In this document: positions 25,314 to 28,597 of the stretch, in pieces | Layout of the letters: each line of letters begins with the position of its first letter | How positions within the stretch are numbered: the first letter of the stretch is position 1 | Origin: a virus | IMG/VR virus record: IMGVR_UViG_3300025128_000232 | Span: 1-28,597 of that record | Reading direction: 5' to 3' (one strand) | Length of the DNA stretch: 28,597 bases | Notes under the pieces: model-generated | The model's input: only the letters and a program-made list of their open reading frames with translations | Told to the model about the DNA's origin: nothing | Databases searched by the model: none | Translations under genes and position numbers: made by a program

Positions 25314-25413
25314 TGGCTCCGGGAGGTTGGCTCGAACAACCACTTGACTGCTTTCGCAATAGTCAACACCCTATAAACGGTAGGGCTGCTTTACCAAGTT
25401 AGCATATCCCGGA
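25314..25413 (-). tRNA. tRNA-Asn-like (GUU) with 27-nt variable arm; noncanonical
   Basis: All tRNA elements fold without mismatch. Acceptor TCCGGGA pairs with TCCCGGA (7 bp), then G73 and encoded CCA. T8 A9 are followed by D stem TGCT/AGCA with a GG-containing loop, anticodon stem CCCTA/TAGGG, and T stem GGTTG/CAACC with loop TTCGAGC. The 7-nt anticodon loop CCGTTTA puts GTT at 25378-25376, the Asn anticodon. U1-A72 and G73, and the first three pairs TCC/GGA, agree with E. coli tRNA-Asn as I recall it. Three things are abnormal: C instead of U at 33, U instead of a purine at 37, and a 27-nt variable region (25368-25342) with a 6-bp stem TTGACT/AGTCAA capped by GCGAAAGC. Long variable arms belong to Ser, Leu, Tyr and Sec tRNAs, not Asn. 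It begins 8 nt after the stop of the synthetase-like gene, on the same strand. It could be a working tRNA or a tRNA mimic. Confidence 0.85.
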
Positions 25414-25421
25414 GTATTTTT

Positions 25422-26276
25422 TTAGTGCATATTTTTTATCACATCCCTAACATTATACATCTGCTTTGCTCGTATAAATCGGGTCATCCCAATGCCACCT
25501 CCGTATCTGGGAATAAAGTCGTGATCCAGAAACTCATCTAGTTCTTTCTCAACTCTATTCTTACCAAACAGTCCAAAAAGTAAGTTTGCATATAGTCCAT
25601 CAGATATAGTATGAAACATATTTCGCATCTCATCTTTATCTGACGACCTTTCAGCTGAACCTATAGTTTCCTGTTCCATGATGATAACATCTATCTTGGC
25701 GGCAGTTCCGTCACCGTTCTGTTTCATGTTCCAGAAGGGACTTGTATAGTTGGGGAAGTTCTTTATCATACAAGGGCGGCCACCCCAGCTACGACACATA
25801 TCTCTTTCGTGGTCGTGGTCTAACTCCTCAACATGAAATGTCTCGGCCCAGTCCTTGTAGTCCTTGGCCACCACTTGGTCTCTTGCACAGAACTGAACGT
25901 GCTCAAGAAGTTCCTTTTCAAGTTCCTCCAAATCCGACACAGTTCCGGGTGCCTCGAACTCAAACATGGGAAAAATAGTTTCGTGACGACCTTCTACTAT
26001 ATTTGGTTCTTGTCTATAAGATGTGCTCATACAAAAAAACCCCTTCGATGAGGGGTTTCGTAAAAGCTCATACTCCAACCACATTTGGCCGGTTTGTGGG
26101 AGAGGCCATACCTCTCCATTATAATTGTAAGTTGCTACAGTTTCCGGGTCTTCGCAGGCGGCCAGGATGCTCAATCTATTTTGTGTATGTACCTCTTGAA
26201 AGCCTTTGGCCAAAAAAAAACCACGTAGTAACGTGGCCGATTCAGTAAACTCTCTAGGTGAGATTATTGCAGTCAT
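25422..26276 (-). CDS. AspRS/AsnRS-family class II synthetase-like protein, catalytic core only
   Basis: 284 aa. Class II aminoacyl-tRNA synthetase fold. Motif 2 is YRQE (87-90) with R97-H98 and FPMFEFE (102-108). Motif 3 is GGGIGMTR (259-266). LPQTGQ (59-64), GSAER (206-210) and the ending NVRDVI (275-280) are AspRS/AsnRS features. The ATP-binding arginines of motifs 2 and 3 are present. The motif 1 region (AKGFQEVHTQN) has Gln where the family has its invariant Pro. There is no N-terminal OB-fold anticodon-binding domain; synthetases of this family usually exceed 400 aa. The GGGIG(x)(S/T)R form of motif 3 also resembles asparagine synthetase AsnA, so free-Asn synthesis is the main alternative to tRNA charging. 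It is driven by a late promoter, with GAGGA ahead of the ATG, and is followed at 8 nt by the tRNA-like gene. Two terminator-like hairpins lie in its coding sequence. Confidence 0.85.
   Translation of the reverse strand: MTAIISPREFTESATLLRGFFLAKGFQEVHTQNRLSILAACEDPETVATYNYNGEVWPLPQTGQMWLEYELLRNPSSKGFFCMSTSYRQEPNIVEGRHETIFPMFEFEAPGTVSDLEELEKELLEHVQFCARDQVVAKDYKDWAETFHVEELDHDHERDMCRSWGGRPCMIKNFPNYTSPFWNMKQNGDGTAAKIDVIIMEQETIGSAERSSDKDEMRNMFHTISDGLYANLLFGLFGKNRVEKELDEFLDHDFIPRYGGGIGMTRFIRAKQMYNVRDVIKNMH
26033..26058 (-). terminator. Terminator-like hairpin inside synthetase gene (2nd)
   Basis: On the coding strand AAACCCCT pairs with AGGGGTTT (8 bp, 6-nt loop), and the T run continues to seven T in total. 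This is the shape of an intrinsic terminator, placed at codons 73-82 of the synthetase-like protein. Whether it stops transcription while ribosomes are present is unknown. Confidence 0.55.
26212..26236 (-). terminator. Terminator-like hairpin inside synthetase gene (1st)
   Basis: On the coding strand CCACGT-TACT-ACGTGG (6 bp, 4-nt loop) is followed directly by nine T. It has textbook intrinsic-terminator form but lies at codons 14-22 of the synthetase-like protein, about 65 nt from the predicted transcription start. Confidence 0.6.
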
Positions 26277-28028: not shown

Positions 28029-28597
28029 TTATGAGAACGAATAATCGTCGTCGTCGTTTTGGACATCTTCCTCATCAACATCATCGTCCTGATTCTGCTG
28101 TGACATAATGTCCTCGACACTTACACCACTGTCGACCTTGGTGTAGAGGTCCAGAAACGAGTCCTTCGTCTCCGTATCGAAACGTGACACGCACATCTCG
28201 ATAGACTTCAACTTGTTATCAAAGATACCATAGGCACCTACGATGTGTACCAGACGGCGGGTGGAGATAATCTCATCAACTCCTCCGTCCATAAACGTCT
28301 TGCGGATAACGTCCGCCCACTTGATAAGGTTACCGACGAACTCGCCGTCCACCTTGTCAATCTTCGCCAACTCGTTGACGAGAATCTTCTCCTCAACCTT
28401 GTTGGTCGGATACGACTGCTCCAGAGTAATCGGGAACCTTTCGAGGAATGCCTCATTCAACACGTTGGTGCCGATGAAACGACCGTCGTCAGACCCCTGG
28501 CCCTTGGTGTTCGCCGTAGCAATGACTGTGAAGCCAGGTGCCGGATGTACCCACTTGCCTATCTTCTTGATATAGACACTGGACCCCTCAAGGATAG
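28029..28597 (-). CDS. CobS/MoxR-type AAA+ ATPase, 3' part only
   Basis: The C-terminal 188 or so residues of an AAA+ ATPase that runs off the right edge. The visible part has FTVIATANTKGQG (sensor 1 region), GRFIGTNVLNEAFLERF (ending in the Arg-finger segment) and ITLEQSYPTNKVEEKIL, the pattern of CobS-like (cobaltochelatase subunit) ATPases carried by marine T4-like phages. The Walker motifs lie outside the window. The frame continues upstream of the GTG at 28463, which is therefore not the true start. The C-terminus is a strongly acidic tail (DDDVDEEDVQNDDDDYSFS). The gene looks richer in G+C, with more C-ending codons, than its neighbours. Whether it acts on a chelatase or on another substrate is unknown. 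Confidence 0.8.
   Translation of the reverse strand, partial: ILEGSSVYIKKIGKWVHPAPGFTVIATANTKGQGSDDGRFIGTNVLNEAFLERFPITLEQSYPTNKVEEKILVNELAKIDKVDGEFVGNLIKWADVIRKTFMDGGVDEIISTRRLVHIVGAYGIFDNKLKSIEMCVSRFDTETKDSFLDLYTKVDSGVSVEDIMSQQNQDDDVDEEDVQNDDDDYSFS

Follow-up and report, generated by a model that had tools for sequence, protein, structure and literature searches.

The class II tRNA with asparagine identity at positions 25,314 to 25,413 (minus strand) of the window, a stretch of viral DNA of 28,597 nt, belongs to a conserved gene–tRNA pair of phages, in which the tRNA follows a gene for an AsnRS-like catalytic core. It is tentatively proposed, at a likelihood that we put a little short of even, that this dedicated, Asn-carrying tRNA serves the AsnRS-core enzyme in the synthesis of pyrimidines, away from the ribosome. 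The best clue to function comes from the adjacent gene and its pyrimidine context, both of which were outside the view of a first-pass annotation made from the sequence alone. The source virus record is the window itself (28,597 bases), and the genome context is therefore that of the window.

Structure of the Class II tRNA in the Window

On the minus strand, U1 of the tRNA corresponds to position 25,413 and A76 of the encoded CCA to position 25,314 (100 nt). The acceptor arm (TCCGGGA/TCCCGGA, with the pair U1-A72), a D stem of 4 bp, the anticodon stem (CCCTA/TAGGG, with the loop CCGTTTA) and the T arm (GGTTG/CAACC enclosing TTCGAGC) are followed by the discriminator G73 (25,317) and CCA. Within the anticodon loop (CCGUUUA in the RNA; 25,374–25,380, minus strand), C33 was located at 25,379, the anticodon G34-U35-U36 at 25,378–25,376 and U37 at 25,375, and the variable region of 27 nt (25,342–25,368, minus strand) forms a 6-bp stem with a GC-GAAA-GC cap. 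The first-pass annotation had described the Asn-type ends, the 27-nt arm with its 6-bp stem and cap, C33 and U37, and its letters and coordinates were correct.

The minimum-energy fold was exactly the five-arm class II cloverleaf, at -32.5 kcal/mol, with a z-score of -1.93 against 200 shuffles of the window tRNA, 11 of which folded equally well. When standard ARAGORN was run over the whole window no tRNA was called, and when introns were allowed the tRNA was mistaken for a Lys(UUU) tRNA that contains an intron of 2 nt. The Rfam models gave no match to the window at the gathering threshold.

Conservation and Covariation of the tRNA Family

The 146 tRNAs of the cassettes were reduced to 116 distinct sequences, which were used for all counts out of 116. 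The anticodon was GUU in 115 and GUC in one, the discriminator was G73 in all 116, and the pair 1-72 was U1-A72 in 109, A1-U72 in six and U1-G72 in one; the Asn-type identity that had been read from the window is thus real and strongly conserved. In an alignment of 49 relatives (48 distinct; the window row was entered without its U1), 98.3% of the stem cells paired and two-sided changes were found at 23 of the 24 stem pairs, a level reached by none of 500 shuffles, and pairing fell to 41–50% when the structure was slid along the same 49 rows. The variable stem, for which a check for compensatory changes had been recommended, varies with compensation in the relatives. The reading that the window tRNA is decayed or misassembled, which C33 and U37 would suggest when viewed alone, is hardly credible, as it is refuted by the covariation, by the invariant G73 and by the repeated occurrence of the tRNA, both on numerous contigs and in cyanophage isolates; on this point the first-pass annotation, in which the gene was judged intact, was right.

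Position 37 was U in 100 of the 116 tRNAs (A in 10, C in four and G in two), compared with seven of 444 distinct other tRNAs, a control set of 457 from which 13 family members that had passed the filter were removed. Position 33 was U in 94, C in 11, A in nine and G in two, so that 22 tRNAs had a base other than U33. U37 is therefore a family trait, and the GUU-U37 loop recurs in separate enzyme clades; C33 is lineage-specific only. The variable region was at least 13 nt long in 115 of the 116 and its helix had at least 3 bp in 115 and at least 4 bp in 105, with a GNRA-like cap in only nine, a frequency that does not agree with the earlier idea of this loop as a general docking site. The suggestion that the RNA may not decode normally and may be specialised is in keeping with U37, with the long arm and with the linked enzyme, but C33, on which it had partly been based, is not a defining feature. 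The combination of U33, a purine at position 37 and a short arm in relatives, named beforehand as the mark of an aberrant window copy, was not the general picture: the long arm and U37 are conserved, and U33 is common.

The window tRNA has GUU, G73 and U1-A72 together, as bacterial tRNA-Asn does, whereas its family departs from the short class I variable loop and the A37 of bacterial tRNA-Asn. The signals for charging with Asn are preserved, and position 37 departs from ordinary tRNAs and is abnormal for decoding. The modification t6A, which is present on tRNAs for ANN codons, requires A37, and reading of ANN codons is disfavoured by U37. In our reading, most tRNA bodies of the family look tRNA-Leu-like (GGTGGCGGAATTGGTAGACGC). 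According to the accessible part of PMC9976931, bacterial Asn identity consists of the anticodon and G73, and U1-A72 is the amidotransferase signal; G73 is described as unfavourable for LeuRS recognition (accessible parts of PMC9976931 and PMC4206432).

Two variants were observed in the relatives. A lone partner tRNA (L017:3868-3966) had the anticodon GUC (Asp) with G37 instead of GUU with U37. A partner-tRNA relative of 149 nt (L361:38-186, minus strand; from the record of L093), roughly 0.5 kb downstream of the enzyme gene, contained an insertion in the anticodon region, with GGUUUA still present; it was missed by the strict tRNA parser, which accepted 7-nt anticodon loops only.

The Adjacent Gene Encodes an AsnRS-Like Catalytic Core

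The partner ORF (25,422–26,276, minus strand) encodes a protein of 284 amino acid residues and ends 8 nt before the start of the tRNA on the same strand. It matched phrog_29758 (8e-121), a PHROG that carries no function, and Pfam tRNA-synt_2 (6.4e-12; PF00152, 45.6 bits versus a gathering score of 25). Its best NCBIfam score was that of AsnRS (TIGR00457), at 32.8 bits and thus below the cut-off of 342.6, and it was also below the cut-off of the archaeal asparagine synthetase A model PRK06462 (18.3 versus 389 bits). The predicted structure (pLDDT 90, pTM 0.89) was closest in fold to the AsnRS catalytic domain of Brugia and human (Z 26.8), followed by archaeal asparagine synthetase A (PDB 3p8t, 3reu; Z 24.0, 21% identity) and EpmA/GenX (Z 23.7). 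All 284 residues aligned to the catalytic core only, by Pfam, structure and alignment, and the N-terminal OB-fold anticodon-binding domain is absent.

R88, E90 and R266 (class II motifs 2 and 3) were invariant in all 61 rows of the family alignment, in which four protein ranges (L046, L055, L066 and L074) were shortened. When the family was aligned with three AsnRS from cell genomes, the positions which we take to bind the amino acid and ATP in AsnRS were shared, and visual inspection of 16 family rows showed no active-site differences between the tRNA-linked and the cell enzymes. By alignment, the AsnRS-type active site of the partner enzyme is intact. Elsewhere in the window, an ORF at 28,029–28,463 (minus strand) matched the C-terminal part only of phrog_249 (2.7e-34), and its Pfam match to CbbQ_C was slightly under the cut-off.

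The Gene–tRNA Cassette Is Conserved Across Phages

Relatives on viral contigs were collected by three single-protein scans and one alignment scan (a fourth single-protein scan gave none) and are referred to as set A (L001–L083, L088–L095, L097–L181 and the window) and set B (L182–L252); the relatives in cells are L253–L332. By motif and length, the enzyme ORF could be identified at 174 of the 176 set-A loci, at 66 of the 71 set-B loci and at 71 of the 80 cell loci; set A then gained the window, and nine set-A loci, one set-B locus and one cell locus that ended too early for the downstream check were dropped. L095 and L174 provided just 186 nt of downstream sequence. A class II tRNA was found 3' of the enzyme gene in 146 of the 166 assessable set-A loci, with a gap of 0–30 nt in 127 of the 146 and an overlap with the ORF end in four. 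The remaining 20 set-A loci had no adjacent tRNA, one of them being a 187-kb record whose sole match was tRNA-Arg, and none was found at the 65 assessable loci of set-B phages or at the 70 assessable loci of cells (from the best 80 of 136 relatives). The cassette is securely established as a conserved gene–tRNA pair.

The enzyme gene was present in nine named phage records, and cyanophages P-SSM2, P-SSM5 and P-SSM7 carry the pair, annotated as 'tRNA ligase' and tRNA-Asn. In the accessible part of Sullivan et al. (2010; PMC3037559), P-SSM2 and P-SSM7 are listed with gene cluster 194 under the name 'tRNA ligase', a table gives P-SSM2 one tRNA in total, and no discussion of cluster 194 was met. 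In the P-SSM2 record (AY939844.2; L081:5814-5899), the GenBank tRNA-Asn at 164094–164179 is misplaced by about 2 kb; the real tRNA starts at about 162083, directly behind the 'tRNA ligase' gene. In the literature searched, to which subscription papers and bioRxiv largely did not belong, there was no report of a pair of an AsnRS-core enzyme and a class II Asn tRNA, with pyrimidine context.

An enzyme tree was built from 89 representatives (SH-aLRT support only, midpoint root). One clade of 24 rows (support 100) consisted mainly of tRNA-linked rows; other tRNA-linked rows were placed at two distant positions (L091/L092/L175 and L090), separated from it by cell rows. The tRNA linkage required at least seven state changes on this tree, and the association either arose more than once or is old and was often lost.

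Two other candidate partners were considered. An unlinked partner tRNA in cells, which may yet exist, was sought with the covariance model R1, which gave ordinary class II tRNAs in the 15 matches inspected (part of those in 20 genomes): the eight best loci were all tRNA-Leu, and the seven in Pasteurella atlantica were all Leu, Ser or Tyr. The hypervariable AGTCAGG...CCTGACT tRNA-likes of set-B phages were rejected as partners, since the enzyme occurred in none of the 25 large element records listed, a comparison that had no positive control; six enzyme-bearing records do contain the element. In these elements (L404–L483, also L382, L384, L386, L387 and L389; viral contigs), the acceptor, D and T arms (AGTCAGGTGGCGGAATTGG ... 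CCTGTCCTGACT) are nearly constant and enclose a hypervariable middle, and almost all of the elements are without a regular anticodon arm; of the 85 pattern matches listed, 63 were complete, with lengths of 70–162 nt. They look like a tRNA scaffold enclosing variable RNA.

Pyrimidine Context of the Enzyme Gene in Cells and Phages

From a scan of cell genomes, the best 80 of 136 enzyme relatives were kept (L253–L332), and their record titles included Patescibacteria, Dependentiae, Chlamydia, Woese-, Pace- and Nanoarchaeota, Chitinophagales, Proteobacteria and others. A pyrD, pyrE or pyrF gene was found at most 4 kb from the enzyme gene in 31 of these 80 loci, in gene orders such as enzyme-pyrF-pyrE-pyrD (L328), enzyme-pyrEF-pyrD (L310) and pyrD-pyrEF-enzyme (L278). 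Twenty of the 80 genomes, many of them draft or mixed assemblies, were picked by hand, mainly for long contigs or known names. Among these 20, CarB (the large subunit of carbamoyl-phosphate synthetase) was above the cut-off in one and PyrB (aspartate carbamoyltransferase) in two; the multifunctional type of PyrC was above the cut-off in two, with weaker matches in five more (seven of 20 in all). PyrD (dihydroorotate dehydrogenase) was matched in 14 and not in six, and AsnRS itself was above the cut-off in 10. All 14 control genomes matched the CarB, PyrB, PyrC and PyrD models, PyrC being above the cut-off in 11. The AsnRS-like core protein is encoded in pyrimidine operons of genomes mostly without CarB and PyrB, and quite apart from the phage cassette it is a candidate for a pyrimidine enzyme missing in these cells.

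In phages, the locus L146 had the order pyrD-like gene (PF01180, 1.4e-17), enzyme, tRNA and pyrE-like gene, and L129 and L137 were alike. The phage pyrE-like proteins were named solely by BLASTP, at 38–48% identity to the Pasteurella atlantica neighbour, whose own Pfam score was under the cut-off; Pfam gave no match to the phage pyrE-like proteins tested. In the flanks available, pyr genes were found at 12 of 176 set-A loci and at none of the 71 set-B loci, and no pyr gene was identified among the ORFs of the window. P-SSM2, P-SSM5 and P-SSM7 have pyrE, elsewhere in the genome than the cassette.

Discussion

In the reading that we prefer, the window RNA would be a working class II tRNA that can be charged with asparagine and is dedicated to the AsnRS-core enzyme of the preceding gene. 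Given the context of the family in cells, the enzymes would act in de novo pyrimidine synthesis. The host AsnRS, or AspRS together with GatCAB, would charge the tRNA, which would bring Asn as Asn-tRNA to the enzyme; the enzyme would act on Asn or Asn-tRNA and help to form dihydroorotate or a precursor of it. U37, with which t6A is impossible, the base other than U33 in some lineages and the long arm may keep the tRNA from ribosomal use. This chemistry is put forward as a proposal, built on the RNA fold, the Asn identity set, the cassette, the AsnRS-type active site and the pyrimidine operons. As we see it, dihydroorotate equals asparagine with one carbonyl placed between its two nitrogens, so that an enzyme with a site for Asn and ATP would be a plausible source of dihydroorotate in genomes without CarAB and PyrB. 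As cells and phages share the signature residues of the enzyme, they probably share its reaction too, for which the cell context points to pyrimidines. The fullest form of the proposal is that an AsnRS-derived enzyme makes dihydroorotate from tRNA-held Asn and bicarbonate, with no need for carbamoyl phosphate, and takes the place of CarAB and PyrB, perhaps also of PyrC, in many bacteria, and that phages took over the enzyme together with a dedicated non-ribosomal Asn tRNA; this we regard as doubtful.

The weakest step of the preferred reading is the tRNA as carrier of Asn. Since cells, set-B phages and 20 of 166 set-A loci have the enzyme without the tRNA, the enzyme does not depend on a dedicated tRNA, and elsewhere an ordinary tRNA-Asn could serve or no tRNA may be needed. 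Many copies could decode, given U33 in 94 of the 116 and a base other than U37 in 16 (A37 in 10). As the enzyme has no anticodon-binding domain, something else must keep GUU constant, and the anticodon is probably held by the host charging enzymes, the ribosome or both. The A1-U72 of a distant clade would not suit GatCAB. The six of 20 cell genomes without PyrD, the seven with some PyrC-like match and the scarcity of pyr genes in the phage flanks count against the pyrimidine reading.

The main rival, which we consider rather unlikely, is a self-contained translation pair, in which a mini-synthetase charges its own class II tRNA for decoding AAC and AAU, and the odd loop or body evades host nucleases of tRNA-Asn or gives freedom from the host AsnRS. 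It agrees with the intact active site and class II motifs, with a fold nearest to AsnRS and with the strict gene–tRNA linkage, and it gains from the retention of U33 in most copies and of GUU in all except one. In the accessible parts of PMC10264068 and PMC11555353, phage tRNAs whose anticodon loops are altered are predicted to escape host nucleases. However, the same enzyme and active site occur without the tRNA in pyrimidine operons of cells, where 10 of 20 genomes have a clear AsnRS too, and in phage operons the pair is flanked by pyrD-like and pyrE-like genes; U37, from what is generally known of t6A37, is unfavourable for ANN codons. The absence of an adjacent tRNA at all 70 assessable cell loci would instead fit an enzyme that uses free asparagine or aspartate, either in pyrimidine synthesis or as an asparagine synthetase of the AsnA type (the archaeal AsnA has the same fold without an anticodon domain), with a tRNA that supplements Asn decoding or senses Asn and is linked to the enzyme through Asn supply. 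This is distinctly unlikely in our estimate, as it leaves unexplained why the companion is nearly always one unusual tRNA with U37 recurring in separate clades. Four-base decoding, in which GUUU (34–37) would read AAAC or AAAU and shift the frame, could account for the GUUU kept in 100 of the 116, but is very improbable, since the parsed tRNAs have a normal 7-nt loop (the only length that the parser accepted) and 16 are without U37.

If the tRNA is a steady part of a metabolic cassette in widespread phages, the uses of tRNA outside the ribosome would grow by a new one, and the retention of just one tRNA gene in phages such as P-SSM2 would be explained. For bacteria that apparently have no carbamoyl-phosphate synthetase and aspartate carbamoyltransferase, the enzyme family suggests a route to pyrimidines.

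Among known systems, the anti-nuclease tRNAs are also phage tRNAs, with altered anticodon loops in PMC10264068; a link to an AsnRS-like gene was not met in the accessible parts of that paper or of PMC11555353. Bacterial tRNA-Asn shares GUU, G73 and U1-A72 with the phage tRNA, which differs in its long variable arm, its mostly Leu-like body, U37 in place of A37, C33 (in the window) and the dedicated enzyme gene alongside. AsnRS (TIGR00457) has the catalytic fold, the motifs and the Asn-type site residues in common with the partner enzyme, which differs in having no anticodon-binding domain and in its score far below the model cut-off. Archaeal asparagine synthetase A is likewise an AsnRS-derived core without an anticodon domain, at 21% identity and with the partner far under its model cut-off, and we know of no tie of it to a tRNA gene. 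EpmA/GenX, whose substrate is EF-P, is likewise a stand-alone class II core and differs in having no known tRNA partner. Non-ribosomal tRNAs are known in the staphylococcal tRNA-Gly for peptidoglycan and in Glu-tRNA for tetrapyrroles; in these an aminoacyl-tRNA is used in metabolism, as would be the case for the phage tRNA, with a different amino acid, enzyme and product.
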